NCBI GenBank assembly: GCA_030431255.1
Contig: JAUIJL010000004.1
Location: forward strand, 372,001-436,000
DNA length: 64,000 nt
Source: Thermoanaerobaculia bacterium
GTDB taxonomy: Bacteria > Acidobacteriota > Thermoanaerobaculia > Multivoradales > J023
Reading direction: 5' to 3'
Numbering within the stretch: the first letter of the stretch is position 1; each line of letters opens with the position of its first letter. Below, piece after piece: positions 3,343-40,589 of the stretch. The position numbers and the translations under genes were made by a program. Below the pieces are notes generated by a model. That model was not told the DNA's origin. It was given only the letters and a program-made list of their open reading frames with translations, and did no database searches.

Positions 3343-4569
3343 TCAGTGTTCTTTGAGGTGCTCGCGGACCATGAGGGCGACCGTCGCCCCTTCGCCGGCC
3401 GCGCTGGCCGCCTGGTGAGTGCTTCCGGCCCGTACGTCGCCGGCGGCGAAGACTCCGGGCACCGATGACATCAGGGTTTTGTCGGTGGTGATGAAACCCC
3501 ATTCATCACGCTCTACGACCTCCGGCACCCAATCGCTGTTGGGCGATAGGCCGATGAACACGAAGAGCGCCGCCGGATTCAAGATCTCACTCCCGCCATC
3601 GGCATCCTCGACCTCCAGTTTCTCCAGCCGGCTTTTGCCGGTCAGTCCCGCAATCGAGGTGTTGTAACGCACCTCAATCTTCGGATGGCTCTCCACTTTT
3701 TCTCGCACCATGGGAGAGGTCTTCAGCTGATCACCTCGGACGAGAAGGGTGATCTCAGAGGCGAAACGGGTCAGGAAGAGGCTCTCCTCCGCGGCGCTAT
3801 TGCCGCCACCGACCACGGCCACCGGCTGGTCGCGGTAGAAGGGTCCGTCACAGGTGGCACAGAAGTGCACACCCGCGCCGATCAAAGCCTCCTCGCCTTC
3901 CACCTCCAAGCGACGGTAGGTGGAGCCGGTCGCCAACACGACGGCACGGGCGCCGTAGACCTGACCACCGACGGTCTCCACCACTTGAGAGGGACCCTCC
4001 GCTCGAATGTCGGCCACTTCTTGGGCTTCCAGGATCTCAACACCGAACCGTTTGGCCTGGTGCACCAGACGACGGGCGAATTCGTCACCGGTGATGCCGT
4101 CCGGAAATCCGGGGAAATTATCGAGCCGGTCGGTGATCCCGGTTTGGCCACCTAGACCGCTCTTTTCCACCACCAACACCTCCAAGCCGTCACGGGCCAA
4201 ATAAAGGGCCGCTGTCAATCCCGCCGGACCACTGCCGACGATGATCACGTCGTAGAAATCGAGCTTCGCCGAGGTGTTTAGACCCAACGCGCGGGCCAGC
4301 TCCGCGTTGTCGGGGTTGGACAACACCTGGCCATCGGCCAAGGCCAGCGTCGGAATCCGCCGCTTGCCGTCGTTGACTTTCTCGACAAAGGCGATCGCCT
4401 CGTCGTTGTCGGTGATGTCGATCCACTCGTAGGGGATCCGCTGCTCGCCGAGAAATTTCTTCGCCCGGCGGCAGTCTCCGCACCAATTGGCTCCATATAG
4501 CGTCAACATGTCACTTTCAGTCGGCCTACGTTCAACCGTCCCACTTTCGGACGTCATGGTTTCAGTCAT
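3343..4569 (-). CDS. Glutaredoxin-like domain fused to thioredoxin reductase
   Basis: FAD/NADPH disulfide reductase of 408 residues. An N-terminal glutaredoxin-like domain of about 100 residues has YGANWCGDC (C30, C33). The thioredoxin-reductase body follows: FAD motif GSGPAGLTAALYLA, redox pair CATCDG, NADPH motif GGGNSAAEESLFL, and a C-terminal FAD motif containing GVFAAGDVRAG. The fusion suggests that the enzyme passes electrons to its own CxxC domain. ATG 4569 is chosen because AAAGGAG sits 6 nt upstream; the open frame continues further upstream, but that part is antisense overlap with the next gene. It is last in a leftward cluster behind the HExxH protein, separated by 107 bp that hold tandem repeats. 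Confidence 0.92.
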   Translation of the reverse strand: MTETMTSESGTVERRPTESDMLTLYGANWCGDCRRAKKFLGEQRIPYEWIDITDNDEAIAFVEKVNDGKRRIPTLALADGQVLSNPDNAELARALGLNTSAKLDFYDVIIVGSGPAGLTAALYLARDGLEVLVVEKSGLGGQTGITDRLDNFPGFPDGITGDEFARRLVHQAKRFGVEILEAQEVADIRAEGPSQVVETVGGQVYGARAVVLATGSTYRRLEVEGEEALIGAGVHFCATCDGPFYRDQPVAVVGGGNSAAEESLFLTRFASEITLLVRGDQLKTSPMVREKVESHPKIEVRYNTSIAGLTGKSRLEKLEVEDADGGSEILNPAALFVFIGLSPNSDWVPEVVERDEWGFITTDKTLMSSVPGVFAAGDVRAGSTHQAASAAGEGATVALMVREHLKEH

Positions 4570-4634
4570 CACGGGCTCCTTTCCCGTCAAGTCCATATCG
4601 ATCAGAAGATGAGATGCGCCCAGAGGTCCGAGGG

Positions 4635-4679
4635 ATACAGCGGAGATCAATACAGCGGAGATAAATACAGCGGGGATTA
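4635..4679. repeat. Three tandem 15-bp repeats
   Basis: Three head-to-tail copies of ATACAGCGGAGATNA, the last with GGGGATTA, start at 4635, 4650 and 4665. They begin at the stop codon of the upstream HExxH gene and run into the spacer before the thioredoxin reductase gene. Confidence 0.9.
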
Positions 4680-5222
4680 ATCGGGCCGCGACCAGCAGGT
4701 GGCGGCACGGAAGATCTCGCCCGCACGGAAACGATCTTCGAGGGCGTAGGCCTCCACTTCCAAGGGAATGCGTAGGTACTCCCGACCATGGCTCAGCCAA
4801 CCGTCGACATATTTCAGGGCGAAACCACCGATGCCCAGGGCGCGATATTGCAAGACGTGGATGAGCTCGTGAAAGAGCAGGGCCGCCGGCAAGGTACGAC
4901 CCCGACCGAGCTCTGACACCAACACCAAATCCCCGAAGGTGATGCCCGCCGCGCTCCGAAAGTCCATGTCCAGCTTCAAGCCGAAGAGGGCAAGGGGACG
5001 TATGAACCAAGGCCTGGAGACGCTGCGCACCTCGCGGATCCGCACGTCCGACAGCAGCTCCTCGTCGAAATAGGCCTCGAGATGCACCCGTTCTCCGGGT
5101 CGCAGGGGCCGAGACGCTCTCCAATGTCGACGGATTTGGGCGCGAATCCATAGATTGCCGACCAGCGCCAACAGGCGAGTCACTATCCTCAGCAGGATCC
5201 TCGATGGTGAGATGCGGGCCAA
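4677..5222 (-). CDS. Small membrane-associated HExxH protein, putative metallopeptidase
   Basis: Protein of 181 residues not assigned to a named family. An N-terminal hydrophobic stretch (ILLRIVTRLLALVGNLWI) may anchor it. The core has FHELIHVLQYRALG, an HExxH zinc motif, with a downstream LEVEAYALEDRF that could give the third ligand as in gluzincins. Similar small HExxH...Q proteins (DUF4157-like) are usually called putative peptidases, but activity is unproven. A TTG start at 5222 with GGGAAAG just upstream is used. The gene follows the histidine kinase by 27 bp, so the two are probably cotranscribed. Confidence 0.6.
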   Translation of the reverse strand: MARISPSRILLRIVTRLLALVGNLWIRAQIRRHWRASRPLRPGERVHLEAYFDEELLSDVRIREVRSVSRPWFIRPLALFGLKLDMDFRSAAGITFGDLVLVSELGRGRTLPAALLFHELIHVLQYRALGIGGFALKYVDGWLSHGREYLRIPLEVEAYALEDRFRAGEIFRAATCWSRPD

Positions 5223-5249
5223 GCTTTCCCAGCTCCGAGTCGGCGAACG

Positions 5250-6596
5250 TCAGGAATGCCGTTTGAAACGAATGCGGACGGTGGTTCCGTCGCCGGGCAC
5301 GCTGTCGACCTCGATCCTCGCGCCATGCGCTTCGGCGATCCGCTGGACGATGGCCAGGCCCAAACCCGTGCCTCCCTTGCGGTTGGAATAGAAGAGGTCG
5401 AACATCTTGATGCGGACTTTGTCCGGAATCCCTTGGCCGTTGTCGATCACCTCGAGCACCGGATCCGGTCCGTCGAGGCGCGCCACCAAGCGCAACAGAC
5501 CGGGGCGTCTGACCTCAGAATGTTTAGACTCGGAGCTTTGAGCCCCCGATATGGCGGCCAAGGCGTTCTGCATGAGATTTAGCAACAATTGGTTGATCTG
5601 GCTCGGATCCACCTTCACCCGCTCGCCGCCGGTGCGGTCCTCGAGCTCACATTCCACGCCGCGGTCGCGGATCTCCCCCGCCAACACCTCATGGGCTCGA
5701 CGCAGCAGACCCACCAGGGCGACTTCCTTGAGCTCTAAATTTTGCGGCTTGGCATAGGCCAAGAAATCCGTGGCCAGAACCTCCAATCGTCGTAGCTCGC
5801 TGCGGGTGATCGAAAGCAAACGCTTTTGAGAGCTGGACTCACCGACCTCTTGGGCTTCCTCCTCCAACATCTGCATATTCAGGCTGAGGGAGTTCAATGG
5901 GCTGCGAATCTCGTGGGCCAGACCGGACGCCAAGGTCCCCACGTAGGCCAAACGCTCGGCTTCCTGGGCCTGCTCCTCCAACTTGCGCGTGCTGCGCAGC
6001 AGCTTCAGAAAGGCCACCAGCGCGGCCACTAAGAGGGCGACGGTAAAGCCGCCGATAAGCACGGTTTGGCGGACCAGCTCCTGACGCAGCACCGCGATGC
6101 GCTCCTGCACCGCCTGCTCACTGACCCCGATCACCAAGGTCCCGAGATTGGCGCCGATGGGAATCTCTGTTTCGATGAGGGTCGGCTCGGGGCTGCCGTC
6201 GTTGATGATCCTCGGCCCGTCGTCCCCCTCCAGGGGCAGCTCGGTTTCCTCGCTTTTCGTGTACACCACCTGGCCGTCGGCGTCGCGGATTTCAATCGTG
6301 CGCACCAGATTGCGTCGACTGAGCACGGATTCGATATAAGTCTGGGTCTCCTCGGCCGTGCTGACCAATAGGAAGAGGTCCTCTTGATTCTCCAATTGGG
6401 ATCTCAACGCCAGCTCCTCGGCGATCGGCTCGGCTTGCTCGCGGGTCTCCAAAAGGGTCTCCTCGAGCTCCCGCTGGGAAAGGGAATCGAGGATCAACCA
6501 GGCGAAGAGACCGATATCGAAAACGACGAAAAGACCGAAGATCGTCGAGGCCAAAACCATCCGTCGGGATCCCAAGAAACGGGTGCTGCGTGCCAT
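5250..6596 (-). CDS. Sensor histidine kinase
   Basis: Two-component membrane kinase of about 448 residues. A first membrane segment lies near residues 14-36, followed by an extracytoplasmic sensor of about 140 residues and a second membrane segment (LIGGFTVALLVAALVAFL). The cytoplasmic part has H-box GLAHEIRSPLNSL, N-box NLMQNALAAI, G1 DNGQGIP and G2 GTGLGLAIV. All catalytic boxes are intact. No response regulator is adjacent in this window, so its partner is unknown. ATG 6596 (MARSTRFLGS) is preferred over a longer frame because the first membrane segment follows directly; no strong ribosome-binding site is visible. Confidence 0.9.
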   Translation of the reverse strand: MARSTRFLGSRRMVLASTIFGLFVVFDIGLFAWLILDSLSQRELEETLLETREQAEPIAEELALRSQLENQEDLFLLVSTAEETQTYIESVLSRRNLVRTIEIRDADGQVVYTKSEETELPLEGDDGPRIINDGSPEPTLIETEIPIGANLGTLVIGVSEQAVQERIAVLRQELVRQTVLIGGFTVALLVAALVAFLKLLRSTRKLEEQAQEAERLAYVGTLASGLAHEIRSPLNSLSLNMQMLEEEAQEVGESSSQKRLLSITRSELRRLEVLATDFLAYAKPQNLELKEVALVGLLRRAHEVLAGEIRDRGVECELEDRTGGERVKVDPSQINQLLLNLMQNALAAISGAQSSESKHSEVRRPGLLRLVARLDGPDPVLEVIDNGQGIPDKVRIKMFDLFYSNRKGGTGLGLAIVQRIAEAHGARIEVDSVPGDGTTVRIRFKRHS

Positions 6597-31475: not shown

Positions 31476-33218
31476 ATGTCCGATCCCACCGCGACACCTT
31501 CGCAAGCCCCCGACACTACCGACGGCGAGGCAAAAACCGAAGCTAGTGAAAGCCCGATTGAGGCTAAGGCTGAGCCCAGTGAGAACGCCGTAGAGGCCGC
31601 TCCCGAGGCAGAAGCCGAAGCCACCACCGAGCAAGAACAAACCGAGCCCGCGGCAGAAGCCAAAGCCGAGGAAGCCGAACCCGCGGCTGAGGCCAAAGCT
31701 GAAGAAGCCGAGCCTGCTGCTGAAGCCAAAGCTGAAGAGGTCGAGCCTGCTGCCGAAGCCGAAGCTGAGGAAGCCGAGCCCGCGGCAGAAGCCAAAGCCG
31801 AGGAAGCCGAACCCGCGGCTGAGGCCAAAGCTGAGGAAGCCGAGCCTGCTGCTGAAGCCAAAGCTGAAGAGGCCGAGCCCGCGGCAGAAGCCAAAGCTGA
31901 GGAAGCCGAGCCTGCTGCCGAAGCCAAGGCTGAAGAGGCTGAGAAAGCATCGGAAAAACCCGCCGAGGCTGCCGCCGCAAAAACCGACGAAGCAGCTGAA
32001 AAAGATTCCAAGGACGGCCCCTCGGGCCCGGCGCTCCAAAGCGAGGAGCTGGCTCAGCTCAACGCGGCCAAGGAGTCGAAGACCCCGGTCGTCGGCAGGG
32101 TCATCGGTTGGAATAAGGGCGGTTACCACGTCGCGGTCGACAAAGTCGCGGCTTTCTGCCCCGTTTCACAGATCGAGATCGGCAACCCCCGCAGCCCGAA
32201 GAAATATCTCGACAAAGAATTTCCCTTCCACGTCATCGAGGTGCAAAAGGACGGCCGCCGCGTCGTGCTCTCCAGGGCCTCGGCGTTGAAAGCGGAGCGT
32301 CAAGCCCAAGCCGCCAAGGTGCGCGAGAAGCTGAAACCCAATGCCGAAATGGAAGGGCGGGTCAGCTCGATCACCGATTTCGGCGCCTTCGTCGATCTCG
32401 GCGGTGGCATCGAGGGATTGGTGCACATTTCTGAAGTGAGCCGCCGCCGCGTGGAGCACGCCAAAGAGGTGCTCAAAGTCGGCCAACAGGTCAAGGTGGC
32501 GGTGCTCAAAGTCGAGAAGAACGGCAAACGCATCTCCCTTTCCATGAAACGGCTGGAGCCGGATCCCTGGAACGGCGTGCAGGAACGCTTCGCCGTGGGC
32601 GGGGAGTTCAAAGGCAAAGTCGTCCGGAAGACCGACTTCGGCCTGTTCGTCGAAGTCGAGCCGGGTCTCGAAGGCCTGGTCCACCAGAGCCGTCTGCCCC
32701 TGGGCACCACGCTTTCCGATGAGTCCCTCGAGCCGGGGGCCGAGATCAGCGGTTGGGTGCACGAGGTCGAGCGCAAACGCCGTCGCCTCTCCCTGTCCAT
32801 GCGCCCGGTCGCCGAAGGCAACCCCTGGAAAGACGTTTCCGACCGCTATCCGGAAGGCGAGCTGGTCACCGGCAAAGTCGAACGTCTGGCCGACTTCGGT
32901 GCCTTCATCGAGCTCGAGCCCGGGCTGACCGGCCTGTTGCCCTTCTCGGTGGTGGGCGGTGTGGGCAACCCGAAGCGTCAATTCCAAGTGGGCAAAGAAG
33001 TGAAGGTCAAAGTTCTGGCCATTGACCGCGACAAGAAGCGGATCTCTTTGGGCACCGAGGCCTCGAAAGCCGAGGGCAGCATCCAGGACTACAAGGAGTA
33101 CATGAAGAGTCAGGGCCGGGGCTCTTCCGAGAGCAAGGGTGGCGGTAGCGGCCTCAACGCCATGGCCGCCGCTTTGGCCAAGCTCAAGGACCAAATGGCC
33201 AGCCCGACCAATCAATAA
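31476..33218 (+). CDS. S1 RNA-binding protein with four S1 domains and a long Ala/Glu/Lys repeat
   Basis: Protein of 580 residues. An acidic low-complexity N-terminus includes nine tandem 11-residue units EPAAEAKAEEA (about residues 57-155). Four S1 OB-fold domains follow; the second to fourth have the hallmark DFGAFVDL, DFGLFVEV and DFGAFIEL, each closing with a KRISLS-type strand. The C-terminus is Gly/Ser-rich. The layout resembles ribosomal protein S1 homologues in phyla where rpsA is divergent, so a translation or RNA-decay role is likely, but I cannot say it is rpsA itself. ATG 31476 has GGAGG 7 nt upstream; the frame extends further 5' without support. Confidence 0.85.
   Translation: MSDPTATPSQAPDTTDGEAKTEASESPIEAKAEPSENAVEAAPEAEAEATTEQEQTEPAAEAKAEEAEPAAEAKAEEAEPAAEAKAEEVEPAAEAEAEEAEPAAEAKAEEAEPAAEAKAEEAEPAAEAKAEEAEPAAEAKAEEAEPAAEAKAEEAEKASEKPAEAAAAKTDEAAEKDSKDGPSGPALQSEELAQLNAAKESKTPVVGRVIGWNKGGYHVAVDKVAAFCPVSQIEIGNPRSPKKYLDKEFPFHVIEVQKDGRRVVLSRASALKAERQAQAAKVREKLKPNAEMEGRVSSITDFGAFVDLGGGIEGLVHISEVSRRRVEHAKEVLKVGQQVKVAVLKVEKNGKRISLSMKRLEPDPWNGVQERFAVGGEFKGKVVRKTDFGLFVEVEPGLEGLVHQSRLPLGTTLSDESLEPGAEISGWVHEVERKRRRLSLSMRPVAEGNPWKDVSDRYPEGELVTGKVERLADFGAFIELEPGLTGLLPFSVVGGVGNPKRQFQVGKEVKVKVLAIDRDKKRISLGTEASKAEGSIQDYKEYMKSQGRGSSESKGGGSGLNAMAAALAKLKDQMASPTNQ
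31644..31940 (+). repeat. Nine in-frame 33-bp repeats inside the S1 gene
   Basis: Nine units of 33 bp encode EPAAEAKAEEA with V and E variants in units 3 and 4. Several units are identical at DNA level (for example GAGCCCGCGGCAGAAGCC), which suggests recent slippage or unequal crossing-over. Confidence 0.9.
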
Positions 33219-34732: not shown

Positions 34733-35674
34733 ATGACCGATCTCACCCCTTATCTCCGATTCGACCCCAAGTCTTGGGGGCATTTGCGCGCGTCCACGCC
34801 GATGACGCTCAAAGAATCCGATTTGGAGCAGCTGCGCGGCATCCATGAGAACGTCTCCTTGGAGGAGGTGGAGGCGATCTACCTGCCGCTTTCCCGCCTG
34901 CTCAATCTTTACGTGGCCGCCTCTCACAATCTTTTTCGCGCCACCGATGCCTTTCTCGGTCATCGCCAGCCGAAAGTGCCCTACATCATCGGGCTGGCGG
35001 GCAGCGTCGCGGTCGGCAAGAGCACCACCGCTCGCATTCTTCAAGCTCTGCTCGCTCGATGGCCGAGCCACCCCAAGGTCGACCTGGTCACCACCGACGG
35101 CTTTCTCTATCCGAACCGCGAGCTCGAGGCTCGCAACCTGATGCACCGCAAAGGATTCCCCGAAAGCTACGATGTCTCCGCCCTGCTGCGATTCTTGGTC
35201 GACCTCAAGTCCGGGCAAGAAGAAGCTCGAGCTCCGGTCTACAGCCATCAAGCCTACGATATTCTGAAAGACCACGATTTGGTGGTCCGCCGACCGGACA
35301 TCGTGATCGTCGAAGGGTTGAACGTGCTGCAAACCAACGCCACCCACAATCTCGGTCGCTCCGCCCGGCTCTTCGTCTCGGATTTTTTCGATTTTTCTAT
35401 CTTCGTCGACGCCGAGCCCGCGGTCATTCGGCAGTGGTACGTGCAACGATTCCTTCGGCTGCGCGAAACCGTCTTCACAGATCCGTCCTCCTATTTCCAT
35501 CGCTACGCCGAGCTCGACGAGGCCCAAGCGACGGCCACGGCGGAACGCATCTGGGATGAAATCAACGGCCCGAATCTGGAAGAGAATATCGCTCCGACCC
35601 GCGAGCGGGCCGATCTGATCCTCGGCAAAGGGCCGAGCCACAGTATTCGGGAAGTCTTCCTACGCCGACTCTGA
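34733..35674 (+). CDS. coaA: Type I pantothenate kinase
   Basis: Phosphorylates pantothenate, the first step of coenzyme A synthesis. The 313-residue protein is full length and collinear with bacterial Coa[14 protein letters not shown] near the N-terminus, P-loop [31 protein letters not shown] and [12 protein letters not shown] 34733 is used; the ribosome-binding site is weak. It is followed after 14 bp by the MerR-type fusion gene, suggesting shared transcription. Confidence 0.96.
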
Positions 35675-35688
35675 GCCATGCCGAGCTT

Positions 35689-38600
35689 GTGACCTCTTCG
35701 AAATCATCTCCCGTCTTTCCCCAGCATCCGATTCGTGTGGTCTCCCAGCGGACCGGGCTCAAGCCCGATTTGATCCGGGCTTGGGAGCGGCGATACGGTG
35801 CGATCAAACCCCGGCGCACCGCCGGTCGCCACCGCTTCTACTCCGACAAGGACATCGAGCGGCTGTTGCTCCTGCGCCGGGCGACATCCTCGGAGAGGTC
35901 CATTGGTCAGCTGGCCCAGCTGAGCGACGAGCAGCTGCGAGCCTTGATCGAAAATGATCGATCCCCCGAGCCGGCCCATCTGCCGGCACTTCCGGAGCAG
36001 AAGCCGGCCAACGTCTTTGACGAGGCCCTCAACGCCATCGCCGAGCTGAGCTCCGAAGCCCTTGCCGCCCGATTGGACCAAGCTGCTCTGAGGCTGGGTT
36101 ACGCCCGGGCCCTCAGCGATTGGGTCGAGCCGCTGCTTGCCGAAGCCCGCGAGCGGCACCGGCTCGGCCGACTGAGGGAAGCCCATCTGCGTTTCGCGGA
36201 ATGCGAGCTTCGCGCCTTCGTCCAGGGCTTGATGCGCCGCGCACCCCTGGACGCCGCGGCGCCACGGGTAGTGGTCGCCACCTTGATCGGCGACCGATGG
36301 GAGCTCGGCGCTCTTCTGATGGCTGCCCATGCGATCGGTGAGGGCTGGCGCGCCGTCTATCTCGGGACCGAGGTGCCGGCGGAGGAAATAGCCGCAGCTC
36401 GCAAGACGACCGAAGCGGTGGCGGTCATGCTCGACCTGCCCGCTCCGCCACGGTACCCAGAGACACGGTACCCAGAGACACGGTGCCCAGAGACACAGCA
36501 CCCTGAGACGCAGCGCCCCGAACAACAAAACCCCGAGCCGAAAAGCCACACTCAAGGTGCCCAGCTGCGCGACCTACGTCGACGGCTCGGCTCCGACGTG
36601 CCGCTGTTGGTCGGAGGGCCGGCCCTTAGCGACCATGCTTCTTCATGGCGCTCCCCCGTCCTCGATGGTGAGGCTTTCGCACCCGCCCTGTCGGTGCAAA
36701 ATCACGGCGAGCTGCGAACACTGCTCGTGCAGCTGCGGGCTCGACATCGAAGCCGCCGGTCTGCCAAGGATAGAGTGGACGCTGCCCAAAGCCCCCTGAG
36801 AGGCCCAGCCGGCGAAGATGTACCCATCGGCCACCGGGAGCTCCCGCTTTCCGCCGATGCTCGACACCACCGACACCTCGAGCCGTCCCTTTTGACCGAG
36901 GGTGGCGGCCTGAGGATCGGCTCTCTGCAATCGGTCCGACGGCTCGTCCACCGCCTCAACGAGCACCCTGACGTCCAGGACGGCCGAGAGCCCCTGTTTT
37001 TCGCCGGTCAGATCAAGGCGGCGGCCTTAATCCACGAGGTCCTGCACCATTGCATGCAAGCTTTCGATAGCGACCCATCCCATCCGTGGTCCACCTTGGC
37101 CGAGCATCGGCTGAGCCAACCGAGCACCGAGGCCTTGGTGGAGCGATTCGCCCGCCTTTTCCCTCCCCTCTCCAGCCACAACCAGCTCGCCGACCAAAGC
37201 TCCAAAGAGCTCGAAACGTCCCGTTGGGGCCGACTGCTGCGCCGACTCTTGGTGTTACGCCGGCTCAACGACAATCCAGCGCTCCAGGGAGCCCGGCGCC
37301 TCTTCGATGACCGGGACCTCAGAGACGATCCGGCCTATGACCAGGTCTGCCGGGATCTCGAGCAGGCGCTGGACGCCTTGTCCAGCCCAGAAGAAGGCTC
37401 CACGCTGCTCGACGAGCTGCTCGGGGCCCAACGGGCCGCCCCGGACGACCTGCCCCGACAGCTCCAACTTTGGCTCGAGACCTGCCCGAGGCTGACCGAC
37501 GAGCTCGCGGATCGGCTGTGGCTGTGCCTCGATGTGCTGCATGAGGAGCGGGCTCCTAGGTGGGATGACATCCACCGACGACCGCTCGATTCCGAGCCTC
37601 GTCTTTCCGAGCCCGATACGGTAGACGCCCCGGCGAGCCTGGTTCCCACAGAGCGGCCTAGTCTTCCTTGGATGCGCGAGCTCGTGCTGATCACCAAGGA
37701 TGTGCTCCTATGGCTCGACCAGCTGTCGTCCGCCCACGGCAAGGCGATCACTACCCTGGACCAGATTCCCGACCAGGAGCTCGAACGGCTGGCAGCCCTC
37801 GGCGTCACGGGAATTTGGTTGGTGGGCATCTGGAAGCGAAGCCCCGCATCACGCCGGATCCGTCGCAGGATGGGTGATGCTGAAGCCGTCGCGTCGCCCT
37901 ACGCCATCGAGGACTACGAGGTGGCTCCGGAGCTCGGGGGTCGGCCGGCAAAAAAGGATCTCGAGCAACGGGCCCGGTCCCGCGGAATTCGGCTGGCTTG
38001 CGATCTGATGCCCAACCATACTGCCATCGACGGTCGTTGGTTGCTCGAGCATCCCGAACGCTTCATGCAAACCGCCGAGCGACCGTTCCCCAGCTACACA
38101 TTCGACGGCGAAGATCTGTCGTCGGACCCGAGGGTCGCGATCTTCCTGGAAGATCACTATTCCGACCAAAGCGATGCTGCCGTGGTCTTCCAACGGGTGG
38201 ATCGATCCACGGGAGAAACCCGTTTCATCTACCATGGCAACGATGGGAACAGCTTGCCTTGGAACGACACCGCCCAGCTCGATTTCAGCCGTGAGGACGT
38301 GCGACGAGCCCTGATCGAGCAGATCGTCGATTTGGCCCAGGAGTTTCCGATCCTGCGTCTGGGTGCTGCCATGACCTTGATTCAAAGGCACTATCAACGG
38401 CTGTGGTTTCCGGAGCCGGGCAAGGGCGGCGCCGTGCCGTCGCGGGCGGAGCACCAGATGACCCGGGAGCAATTTTCACGCTTTATGCCCCGTGAGCTGT
38501 GGCAGGAAGTCTTGGCGGAGGTCGCCGCACGGGCCCCTGGGACCCTGATCCTCGCTGAGGCGCTTTGGAATACCGAGACCTATTTCGCCCACGAGCTCGG

Positions 38601-39324
38601 CATGCATCGGGTCGACAGCTCGGCTTTCTTGGAGCTGCTCACCCAGGGACGTAACGACCAGCTGATCGAAAGCTTGAGGAGCGCCCTGGCCGCCGATCCG
38701 AGCCGCCTCGAAGGTTGGGCTCATTACCTGACTTACCCGGGTCAAATCCACGGGCAGCCCGCCGGGGACGACCGCTACTTCGCCCACTGCACCCTCTTGG
38801 CCACCCTGCCGGGGTGTCCGATCTTCAGTCACCGACAATTCGGGGATCCGACACCGGAGCCTGGGCGGAGCTCGGAGGCAATCCGAGCCGAGGATCCGCT
38901 CTCAACCTGCGCTGCTCACCAGCGCAAAATCGTACCTCTGCTCCGGGACCGCCGACTCTTCGCCCGCGCCGCCGGCCTGACCCTCTTTCCCGTGCACGGG
39001 GCGGAGGATGTGATCGCTTTCGTCAATGGCATGAAGCGGGAGATGCGATGGGTGGTGGTCAACAACAGCCCGGATCCCAAACGCGGCGTCGTTCACTGCT
39101 GCTTCAACCCTGAAAGTCCCGCTTCCGGCTCGACGGATCCGGCTCGCGCGGCCACCTTGGCGGAAGTGCTGCACATCCCCACCACGGGCCCATCCACCCT
39201 TGAGGATCTCCAGAGTGACCGTTCCTTTCAGGTCCACGGTGAGTCGGCGGCGGCCCATGGACTAAGCCTTGAGCTCGAGCCATGGGAAACCCGGGTCTTG
39301 AAGGTAGCTGAACAAGCGGATTAG
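35689..39324 (+). CDS. MerR-type regulator with degenerate B12 domain fused to an inactive GH13-like domain
   Basis: One 1211-residue frame. Residues 12-85 form a MerR helix-turn-helix (LIRAWERRYGAIKPRRT...GRHRFYSD). Residues about 110-350 follow the CarH/LitR-type helical and B12-binding plan, but the expected His before ELG is Trp204 (GDRWELG). An insert of six 5-residue repeats interrupts it. After a linker (365-405), residues 405-1211 resemble a large alpha-amylase-type protein: DLMPNHT at 772-778 and acid E957 (AEALW) are kept, while the nucleophile Asp is Gly892 (RLGAAMT) and the region IV Asp is Gly1018 (TYPGQIHG). It is likely non-catalytic and perhaps sugar-binding. GTG 35689, 14 bp after coaA. 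A sequencing error joining two genes cannot be excluded. Confidence 0.7.
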   Translation: MTSSKSSPVFPQHPIRVVSQRTGLKPDLIRAWERRYGAIKPRRTAGRHRFYSDKDIERLLLLRRATSSERSIGQLAQLSDEQLRALIENDRSPEPAHLPALPEQKPANVFDEALNAIAELSSEALAARLDQAALRLGYARALSDWVEPLLAEARERHRLGRLREAHLRFAECELRAFVQGLMRRAPLDAAAPRVVVATLIGDRWELGALLMAAHAIGEGWRAVYLGTEVPAEEIAAARKTTEAVAVMLDLPAPPRYPETRYPETRCPETQHPETQRPEQQNPEPKSHTQGAQLRDLRRRLGSDVPLLVGGPALSDHASSWRSPVLDGEAFAPALSVQNHGELRTLLVQLRARHRSRRSAKDRVDAAQSPLRGPAGEDVPIGHRELPLSADARHHRHLEPSLLTEGGGLRIGSLQSVRRLVHRLNEHPDVQDGREPLFFAGQIKAAALIHEVLHHCMQAFDSDPSHPWSTLAEHRLSQPSTEALVERFARLFPPLSSHNQLADQSSKELETSRWGRLLRRLLVLRRLNDNPALQGARRLFDDRDLRDDPAYDQVCRDLEQALDALSSPEEGSTLLDELLGAQRAAPDDLPRQLQLWLETCPRLTDELADRLWLCLDVLHEERAPRWDDIHRRPLDSEPRLSEPDTVDAPASLVPTERPSLPWMRELVLITKDVLLWLDQLSSAHGKAITTLDQIPDQELERLAALGVTGIWLVGIWKRSPASRRIRRRMGDAEAVASPYAIEDYEVAPELGGRPAKKDLEQRARSRGIRLACDLMPNHTAIDGRWLLEHPERFMQTAERPFPSYTFDGEDLSSDPRVAIFLEDHYSDQSDAAVVFQRVDRSTGETRFIYHGNDGNSLPWNDTAQLDFSREDVRRALIEQIVDLAQEFPILRLGAAMTLIQRHYQRLWFPEPGKGGAVPSRAEHQMTREQFSRFMPRELWQEVLAEVAARAPGTLILAEALWNTETYFAHELGMHRVDSSAFLELLTQGRNDQLIESLRSALAADPSRLEGWAHYLTYPGQIHGQPAGDDRYFAHCTLLATLPGCPIFSHRQFGDPTPEPGRSSEAIRAEDPLSTCAAHQRKIVPLLRDRRLFARAAGLTLFPVHGAEDVIAFVNGMKREMRWVVVNNSPDPKRGVVHCCFNPESPASGSTDPARAATLAEVLHIPTTGPSTLEDLQSDRSFQVHGESAAAHGLSLELEPWETRVLKVAEQAD
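36451..36540 (+). repeat. Six in-frame 15-bp repeats in the B12-like domain
   Basis: Six tandem 15-bp units starting CGGTACCCAGAGACA encode RYPET-like pentapeptides. The first two are identical and the last three have diverged. They form a hydrophilic loop inside the B12-binding-like domain. Confidence 0.9.
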
Positions 39325-40589
39325 GAAATCGCCGACACGGGCTCCGTCACAGGCGACAAGGTTTGGAGCCCTCCAGCAGCGGGACCTTGGTCTTTTTCGA
39401 TACCTTGGTCCCTATCGATACCTTGGTCTTTCTCGACACCCTGGTCTTGGCCGACGCCTTGGTCTCGTTTTTCCGCCGGCTCGAGATCCACGACCTCCAG
39501 ACGATGAGCCTCTTGAGCTTCCGGAGCCTCCCAATGGTCGAGCAGAAGCTCGAGGTCGCCCTCGCGGGCCTTGTCGGCCTCCAAAGCCGATCGCACAGAT
39601 TCTGGGCTCGCTTCCAAATAGGTCAGCTGCACCGCGGCACCAAGCTCGGCAAAGAGACGGATCAAATGATCTCGAAGCTGACGACCGAGATTCATGTCCA
39701 GCCAGACAAAGGACTGGCCGCGCGACAGCATCTCGCGTGCTTGACCCCGCGCTTCGGAGATCACCGCACCTTGATTCTCTCGCCAAGTGATCCCGTGTTT
39801 TGCTCTGAGGGCGTCGATATCGAGGAGCGGCTCATCCGACAGATTGCGCTCCACCCAGCGCCGCTTGCCGGCACCCGGAAGGCCCGACATCAAGACGACT
39901 CGGGGCCCTTCGCCATCCACTAGGGCTCGGGGGTCGTCGGTCAGCTGGTGGAAGTATCGGAAGCGGGTGGCCGCCGAAGGAAAATCGAAGGCACGTTCGA
40001 AGCAGCCGAGCTCCGAGCAAATCTGCTCATAGGCTCGATGTCGATCGTCCAGATCTTGGGGATCGTCACAAATCCGTCCATCGGCATCGGCTCGTCCGAG
40101 GATGCCCAGCAGATCGCAACGCAGGGACTGGCTGATGGTCAGCACCTGCCGTTCCTGATGATCGCTGTCCCTCAGATAAAGCGGAACCATGTGATGCCGA
40201 ACCAAGGCGCATATCCGCTCTCTCCGGCTCGCGGACACGCCGTCCGACCACAGCAGTCTTCGAGCCAACAACGCGCCACGACGGGCATGCCCTCGGGAGG
40301 TGACCCGCCCACCCGCTTGAACTTTGGTGCATTCGGGTTTGGCGGCATCGTGCAATAGGGCGGAAGCGAAGAGATCCTGTCTCAGGGTCTCGTCCAGTCG
40401 ACCCCAGGAATCGAGCCCGACCATCGCCTCACAGACCATGCGCGTGTGAATCCAAACATCCCCCTCAGCATGGTAGCTGGGGTTCTGAGGACAGCCTTTC
40501 AGGTTGCGGATCCAAGCAAAGCGCGCATCGATTTCATCCCAAGGAACAGGACTTCCCGGTCCGGGACAAAGCTGAAAAATATCTACCAT
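39321..40589 (-). CDS. HD-domain phosphohydrolase fused to a P-loop kinase
   Basis: Protein of about 422 residues. The N-terminal half has the HD signature (HAEGDVWIHTRMV, LLHDAAKPECT, RHHMVPLYL). The C-terminal half is a polynucleotide-kinase-like P-loop domain with VVLMSGLPGAGKRRWVERN; the usual Ser/Thr after GK is Arg. Such HD-kinase pairs are linked to RNA or nucleotide repair, but the substrate is unknown. The tail carries six-residue repeats (DQGVEK type). ATG 40589 (MVDIFQLCPG) is preferred over ATG 40634 because the conserved start follows it. Its stop overlaps the stop of the convergent fusion gene (TTAG). Confidence 0.8.
   Translation of the reverse strand: MVDIFQLCPGPGSPVPWDEIDARFAWIRNLKGCPQNPSYHAEGDVWIHTRMVCEAMVGLDSWGRLDETLRQDLFASALLHDAAKPECTKVQAGGRVTSRGHARRGALLARRLLWSDGVSASRRERICALVRHHMVPLYLRDSDHQERQVLTISQSLRCDLLGILGRADADGRICDDPQDLDDRHRAYEQICSELGCFERAFDFPSAATRFRYFHQLTDDPRALVDGEGPRVVLMSGLPGAGKRRWVERNLSDEPLLDIDALRAKHGITWRENQGAVISEARGQAREMLSRGQSFVWLDMNLGRQLRDHLIRLFAELGAAVQLTYLEASPESVRSALEADKAREGDLELLLDHWEAPEAQEAHRLEVVDLEPAEKRDQGVGQDQGVEKDQGIDRDQGIEKDQGPAAGGLQTLSPVTEPVSAIS
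39385..39467 (-). repeat. In-frame 18-bp repeats in the HD-kinase C-terminal tail
   Basis: Four and a half units of 18 bp with core CCTTGGTC (plus strand) encode DQG[VI][EGD][KQR] hexapeptides at the very end of the protein. They look like a recently expanded low-complexity tail. Confidence 0.9.

Follow-up and report, generated by a model that had tools for sequence, protein, structure and literature searches.

The window analysed here is a stretch of 64,000 nucleotides from the genome of a Thermoanaerobaculia bacterium (assembly GCA_030431255.1, contig JAUIJL010000004.1). On its forward strand, at 35689-39324, lies one unbroken reading frame of 1211 codons, from a GTG at 35689 to a TAG at 39324, in which a MerR-type DNA-binding domain and the cobalamin-domain fold of the CarH regulators are joined to a helical domain and a barrel of the alpha-amylase family GH13. 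The frame starts 14 bases 3' of the end of a coaA-like frame, and its stop codon shares bases with that of the next gene, which is convergent. An earlier reading of the DNA letters alone (the original prediction) had described the single frame and its 14-bp distance from coaA, and both descriptions hold. It had also regarded the combination of domains as one not met before, and here it has to be corrected, as three further fusions share the architecture. A second copy in the window's own genome (G000), on contig C6 (L034), is 36% identical to the window protein over query residues 14-1204. A third, complete fusion was found in genome G018 (L037), and a fourth, in genome G031 (L172), is cut by a contig end after the linker and ends in a stretch homologous to the linker of the G018 fusion. 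Each member of the group carries a CarH-type MerR/cobalamin-domain regulator at the N-terminal end of a GH13-like protein that is itself widespread.

A frameshift at 36720-36900, in the linker region, had been a concern of the original prediction, and no sign of one was found. The G+C content of the second codon position (GC2) is the lowest of the three throughout the frame, this region included. The linker also matches the other fusions in frame, sharing DAA.SP and RRELPL with the C6 fusion and a GGGL.I region with both complete sister fusions (C6 and G018). A reading of the frame as two genes was rejected on these two grounds.

The N-terminal half of the window protein has a MerR domain followed by a cobalamin-domain fold, the same order as in CarH/LitR (Table 1), and its helix-turn-helix is as intact as had been predicted. 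In a sequence search of the Protein Data Bank (PDB), residues 14-249 aligned to Thermus CarH/LitR with an E value of about 4e-17. A model of residues 1-345 built with 16 relatives had a predicted local distance difference test score (pLDDT) of 84 and a predicted template modelling score (pTM) of 0.63; it was matched by CarH cobalamin domains in VIA-align (Z up to 20.8; root-mean-square deviation [rmsd], 2.4) and by full-length CarH in Foldseek (E 2e-15). The Pfam B12-binding match (residues 193-259, E 7.5e-5) is below the cut-off. The window protein reaches 76.5 bits against a cut-off of 400 for NCBIfam NF052513 (TransRegCarH), a cut-off that the G018 fusion, which keeps its axial His, also misses with 104.9 bits. 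In the window protein the axial His of the xHxxG motif is missing: Trp204, correctly picked out in the original prediction, aligns opposite the His of ERHEIG in CarH. This His is present in all 13 standalone MerR/cobalamin relatives in which it was read, from among the larger number of matches in the class and phylum searches, and in two of the four fusions (G031 and G018); the C6 fusion has Leu in its place. At the columns that we take to be those of the Wx9EH helical-bundle motif of CarH/LitR, the G031 fusion has W and EH, the G018 fusion W and EQ, the C6 fusion V and AQ, and the window fusion H and LR, leaving the window protein without this signature of the CarH/LitR photoreceptors. As the axial His is missing from both fusions of the window's genome and kept in the two found elsewhere, the pattern looks like stepwise rewiring.

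In the second half, the alpha-amylase-type domain of the original prediction was recovered by Pfam (Alpha-amylase, residues 696-791, E 1.5e-8, 34.8 bits against a cut-off of 22), by the PDB sequence search (residues 697-809 aligned to the alpha-amylase 3dhu, E 5e-7), and in a model of residues 380-1211 built with 99 relatives (pLDDT 85, pTM 0.84). The best VIA-align match to residues 658-1207 was 3dhu (Z 27.9), tied within 1 with GlgE 4cn1 (Z 27.0); Foldseek ranked TreS first, and the VIA-align lists only re-rank Foldseek matches. Strands of the model end at 891 and 957, just before position 892 and at position 957, which, from the geometry of the family, we take to be where beta-4 and beta-5 should end in a GH13 barrel.

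The catalytic residues of this barrel were compared with those of 113 rows of relatives, which were drawn from the best-scoring loci and are not a random sample. The nucleophile column has Asp in 112 of the 113 rows and a gap in one, and the same counts were obtained for the region-IV column; the window protein has Gly at both, as had been predicted (Gly892 and Gly1018), and the Glu that follows in region IV is changed as well, to Gln1019. Asp, Glu, and Asp occur jointly in 111 rows, and the remaining two are pieces of one interrupted gene (L027), each of which covers one catalytic Asp, the Glu column being unreadable. The possibility that the catalytic Asp had shifted elsewhere, raised in the original prediction as a way in which it could fail, was rejected, as none was found in the alignment of the window protein with the 113 rows. 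The window protein keeps D772, N776, H777, R890, and the predicted E957. Such a protein cannot turn over a substrate in the usual GH13 manner. Because both complete sister fusions keep all the GH13 catalytic residues, the fusion group was probably not dead originally, and the simplest reading is that catalysis was lost in the window copy.

Further losses accompany those of the catalytic residues. At 141 near-invariant columns, defined by 111 background rows with the three complete fusions set aside, the window protein keeps 108 residues and the G018 and C6 fusions keep 124 each (Fisher p 0.019 for the window protein versus each sister, uncorrected). At the other columns the three agree with the consensus equally often (166/424 for the window protein and 169/424 and 177/423 for the sisters); the window copy has therefore lost more enzyme-type sites than the sisters without being more diverged elsewhere in the domain. 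When the other two fusions were counted as background, the window protein had lost 27 of 131 near-invariant residues and the sisters 10 and 10. Two remote rows have lost 39 of 98 near-invariant columns and yet keep D, E, and D. These rows are second GH13-like copies in two Leptolinea loci, about 3 kb from the main copy, at 3789-5387 (-) of L097 and at the matching place in L108, and both retain their catalytic residues.

Table 1. Features of the fusion gene and its upstream neighbor, in positions of the window
Feature	Position	Strand	Basis
MerR - CarH-like cobalamin-domain fold - helical domain - GH13-like fusion protein, 1211 amino acids, GTG start	35689..39324	+	Reading frame, Pfam; architecture common to L034 (C6), L037 (G018), and L172 (G031, truncated)
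MerR winged helix-turn-helix, residues 15-79	35731..35925	+	Pfam MerR_1 E 2.8e-12
Four-helix bundle and Rossmann domain of CarH cobalamin-domain fold, residues 104-345	35998..36723	+	Model m75e1f6de984d, pLDDT 84; 8c37_C Z 20.8, rmsd 2.4, 193 aligned
Trp204 codon TGG replacing axial His	36298..36300	+	Codon read; alignment to CarH
15-bp tandem repeat (PETRYPETRCPETQHPETQ...) within a cobalamin-fold loop; missing from the two complete sister fusions	36449..36518	+	
Helical N-terminal domain of the GH13-like family, residues 384-640	36838..37608	+	Relatives match from residue about 384 on; helices in model
GH13 (beta/alpha)8 barrel and C-terminal beta domain, residues 658-1207	37660..39309	+	Model mc2c8255e71bb, pLDDT 85; 3dhu_A Z 27.9, rmsd 3.3, 389 aligned
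Gly892 (GGT), nucleophile position	38362..38364	+	Codon and alignment
Glu957 (GAG), acid/base position kept	38557..38559	+	Codon and alignment
Gly1018 (GGT)-Gln1019 (CAA) replacing region-IV Asp-Glu	38740..38745	+	Codons and alignment
Upstream coaA-like PRK-family kinase	34733..35674	+	PF00485 E 1e-11; name coaA by eye and from the original prediction

The GH13-like part alone is widespread, with members in Chloroflexota, Spirochaetota, Meiothermus, Acidobacteriota, Aminicenantes, and others (at least 570 confirmed, of which the best 80 were kept). Full-length fusions are rare. A profile of the three complete fusions matched 38 of 72 genomes of the order at an E value of 1e-10, with the full-length fusion present only in the window's genome (two) and G018 (one), and a search of 148 genomes of the class and a sample of 396 from the phylum added no further full-length fusion. 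The order, class, and phylum sets overlap, only the best candidates per genome were scored (up to 11 in the first search, 9 in the order, 4 in the class, and 2 in the phylum), and a fusion that lies on more than one contig could escape such searches. The genus's one other genome had no match to the profile at E 1e-10. An apparent B12-GH13 fusion in the Anaerolineae (L145, match to 193-1204) proved to be two neighboring genes separated by a stop codon, and long frames in G232 and G404 were judged by eye to be ordinary family members.

The window protein has every domain in a single frame and lacks a long C-terminal extension, the combination by which the fusion group was delimited. Such an extension has a median length of 345 amino acids in the 99 family rows with an uncut C-terminal end; it measures 0, 16, and 55 amino acids in the three complete fusions, which together with L179 and L082 make up the 5 of the 99 rows that are without a long one. 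Its absence was rejected as a private mark of the fusions, as L179 and L082 are without it too. L082 (G040) runs into a contig end at its start. Another contig end, overlapping L082 by 191 bp at 97.9%, opens in the manner of an unfused member; the pieces were not joined, and L082 is probably unfused. L179 (G043:C108, 637-3648, minus strand) has intact catalytic residues, and its N-terminus resembles a response-regulator receiver domain in the PDB sequence search (best E 5e-5), with no Pfam match there at 0.001; judging from this resemblance, it is possibly a second regulatory fusion of the GH13-like family. Another signalling-type partner was seen in an Anaerolineae frame (L088, JALWUZ010000270.1, from 896 on the plus strand), which joins an AAA_16 domain and TPR repeats to the GH13-like family; this frame runs to the contig end and may contain errors.

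The other three fusions are divergent from genes whose families point to the use of alpha-glucan or sucrose. The C6 fusion is divergent, across about 295 bp of intergenic DNA, from a TonB-dependent receptor, an SSF symporter, a GH13 protein with an amylosucrase C-terminal domain, and a ROK protein, all confirmed by Pfam. The G018 fusion is divergent, across about 220 bp, from a GH13 amylase and from genes of a maltose-type ABC transporter, namely a MalK-type ATPase (OB_MalK), a solute-binding protein, and one permease, again by Pfam, and a second permease recognized by eye. The G031 fusion is divergent from an amylase 69% identical to that of G018, soon after which the contig ends. The two amylase promoters share a block, AGCTTGACAGATGTGA..GGATTGACAA, that holds two TTGACA elements and TATCAT. 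No pair of the tandem 11-bp TnnACA repeats of CarH-type operators was present upstream of the fusions at 11- or 22-bp spacing; single TnnACA sites were somewhat frequent upstream of the C6 fusion (3 per strand, reached in 0.014 and 0.041 of shuffles, uncorrected). The same upstream region holds a perfect palindrome with 10-bp arms, AATCTAAACA-N4-TGTTTAGATT (L034, 7646-7669). Among unfused GH13-like relatives, L085 is near GH57, GlgC-like, and GH77 genes and L097 from Leptolinea is beside a GH57 gene, with no GH57-, GlgC-, or GH77-type neighbor recognized by eye at the other four of the six loci inspected; an unfused member in G232 is beside a GH77-like gene (by eye). In some genomes the unfused MerR/cobalamin regulators of the order are near photolyase- or epimerase-like genes (by eye), which would fit light regulators.

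The immediate neighbors of the window fusion offered no comparable clue. Among 163 loci compared, coaA matched only the window's own, and the 19 kb around coaA in the genus's one other genome had no match to 11 further window proteins tested. A coaA operon was rejected as a functional clue, as the adjacency is absent from every other place examined, and it has no visible meaning. Two other repeats were seen nearby. A 33-bp tandem repeat array of 8.8 copies at 31642-31933, in the gene of an S1-type protein (by eye), encodes an N-terminus of the EAEPAAEAKAEE type, and an 18-bp tandem repeat at 39384-39465 lies a short distance from the fusion stop codon, towards the end of the convergent AAA_33 gene.

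These observations are best read as evidence for a rare group of putative one-component regulators that control the use of alpha-glucan (or sucrose) and sense through a GH13-derived part; in this group the window copy is a pseudoenzyme paralogue from which the axial ligand of B12 has also been lost. The assignment to sugar use comes mainly from the divergence of all three other fusions from GH13 sugar-use genes, and if the group regulates sugar use, the GH13 half is the obvious sensor. The window copy has kept its DNA-binding domain and, by prediction, both folds, and it has lost the axial His, the nucleophile, and the region-IV Asp. That the window gene itself encodes a one-component regulator, with the GH13-derived part as a putative alpha-glucan sensor that does not consume its ligand, has in our estimate a probability of about one half. 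In such a protein, an alpha-glucan, for example a malto-oligosaccharide, would bind in the former active-site cleft, and a change of shape or oligomeric state would pass via the cobalamin-domain fold to the MerR domain, which would then release or activate its promoter. Without catalysis the window copy would hold its ligand unconsumed as a stable pseudoenzyme sensor, and its targets need not include coaA. According to PMC5076824, crystals of GlgE D394A, a variant that has no nucleophile, held maltose in the donor site and maltopentaose at a further site; a barrel without its nucleophile can therefore still hold glucans. The original prediction's suggestion that a one-component factor uses a dead glycosidase to sense a glycan thus stands in part: its sensing role gains indirect support from three relatives of the same architecture that are divergent from GH13 sugar-use genes, but the group as a whole was probably not dead originally, both complete sisters being of the catalytic type.

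Kinds of protein that resemble the window protein are already known. The MerR-type B12 photoreceptor repressors CarH/LitR, for example CarH of Thermus thermophilus, share the MerR domain, helical bundle, and cobalamin Rossmann fold; unlike them, the window fusion is without the axial His and the Wx9EH residues and has about 850 more residues with a GH13 barrel, and its three sister fusions adjoin sugar genes. CarA is not known to have an enzyme domain and, unlike the window fusion, is controlled by the antirepressor CarS. In PMC9304148, CarA of Myxococcus xanthus is described as a paralogue of CarH whose regulation does not depend on B12 and which is derepressed by CarS; loss of B12 binding therefore need not end function. 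The GH13 alpha-amylases (Lactobacillus plantarum 3dhu nearest) share the barrel and C-terminal domain but have the nucleophile and region-IV Asp and are not fused to a regulator, and the window protein is only 20% identical to 3dhu and 17% to GlgE. The amylase domain of the plant BZR1-BAM factors belongs to GH14; the window protein, with its Alpha-amylase (GH13) and MerR domains by Pfam, has neither that domain nor BZR1. BAM7 and BAM8 resemble it in combining a DNA-binding domain with an inactive amylase domain, of whose catalytic Glu residues one is poorly conserved and the other kept (PMC6394054), but they are eukaryotic proteins without homology to it and are alike only in how they work. 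A glycoside hydrolase domain is also found in RsgI6, one of the RsgI anti-sigma factors of Clostridium thermocellum. As summarized in PMC12203970, RsgI proteins are substrate-sensing regulators of polysaccharide-degrading genes; unlike the window protein they are membrane bound and act on sigma factors rather than on DNA. No glycosidase is among the domains that section 12 of PMC11796333 gives as partners of light-responsive cobalamin domains, and among the papers listed by our literature searches none concerned a MerR/B12-GH13 fusion, which does not show that it is absent from print.

Several observations weigh against a sugar-sensing role for the window copy. Only four fusions were found, one of them truncated. 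The other three are divergent from sugar-use genes, but the window copy follows coaA, and no sugar locus was recognized by eye in the 64-kb window from the first 70 residues of each gene. Allowing up to 2 mismatches, the 10.2-Mb genome has a single copy of the core of the C6 upstream palindrome, and therefore no shared operator links the C6 and window copies. Because amylosucrase acts on sucrose, the C6 locus may serve that sugar, which makes the ligand of the group uncertain. Glucans may be held less well now that the second Asp and further residues are gone, and 8 of the 27 changed near-invariant residues fall within 1043-1061, probably a loop by the cleft, so sugar binding may have been lost too. 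Trees of the GH13 part, finally, do not join the fusions. In a 54-row tree the C6 fusion grouped with two unfused family members at a support of 96, and the window and G018 fusions grouped with L179 and an unfused row, also at 96; in a 26-row tree the placement of the window protein was weak (36). Forcing the three fusions into one GH13 clade cost 2.39 log units, and one clade was not rejected (p-AU 0.46). A tree of the MerR/cobalamin parts placed all four fusions in one clade (94/94) with the window and C6 fusions as sisters (86/87), neither node being starred by the rule of the tree tool. A single fusion event is the simpler reading, with long branches in play, and is not proven.

Among the alternatives, the one that survives best, although we consider it unlikely, is that the window copy is a decaying paralogue heading for a pseudogene and that the losses in both its sensory domains mark relaxed selection rather than a new function. 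It has the longest branch in the 54-row GH13 tree (1.62), ligand residues are gone from both domains, a tandem repeat is present inside the cobalamin-fold domain, and the genus's one other genome is without a match. Set against this are the intact frame with its uniform GC2 pattern and the two predicted folds (pLDDT 84-85, aided by alignments of relatives); as far as sequence can tell, conservation of the GH13 domain outside the near-invariant sites, equal to that of the two sisters, also speaks against plain decay. A crude neutral simulation of codons 641-1211, which ignored indels and ended once 27 near-invariant columns had changed, produced 4.2 stop codons on average, and 1.75% of 400 runs had none. 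Less probable again is a GH13-like half that binds no sugar and acts as a scaffold for dimerisation or protein contact, the signal being a partner protein, as CarS is for CarA. The example of CarA and the alteration of several residues inferred to be near the cleft would suit such a scaffold, but the two sister fusions with full catalytic sites beside sugar genes, and the active-site residues that remain in the window copy, would not. It is improbable that the fusions are bifunctional trigger enzymes in which DNA binding is set by the turnover state of a GH13 half that acts on the inducer, with the window copy as a constitutive or locked version; the full catalytic residues of the C6 and G018 fusions are consistent with this, as is the unfused family, which keeps them in the rows examined and is near glycogen genes in some genomes, but the usual turnover is impossible in the window copy, and we know of no measured activity for the GH13-like family, although no search was aimed at one. 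An assembly or sequencing artefact that joined two genes or corrupted the active site is very unlikely in view of the further fusions in the same genome and two others, the in-frame homology of the linker, and differences at 33 of 141 near-invariant columns rather than at one or two.

The history of the fusions may have been one of successive losses, a scenario that we put forward tentatively and regard as possible but doubtful. The fusions may have begun as dual-input switches, with light/B12 and alpha-glucan inputs on one DNA-binding protein. The G031 fusion still has the cobalamin residues that were checked, and the G018 fusion nearly so; in the C6 fusion the catalytic sugar domain alone would remain, and in the window copy both chemistries would be gone, leaving a pure ligand-binding switch. 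The order would then preserve the steps from an enzyme and a photoreceptor to a pseudoenzyme transcription factor. To our knowledge, the usual sensors of bacterial sugar regulators have periplasmic-binding-protein, ROK, or AraC folds. If a sensory role for the GH13-derived part is true, bacteria would have, in a group with a GH13 barrel as a one-component sensor, an equivalent of the plant BZR1-BAM factors. The presence of a catalytic-type and a noncatalytic copy in one genome would allow a direct comparison of the cost or benefit of catalysis to a sensor, and the group as a whole suggests that a CarH-type light regulator has been redirected to carbon metabolism.

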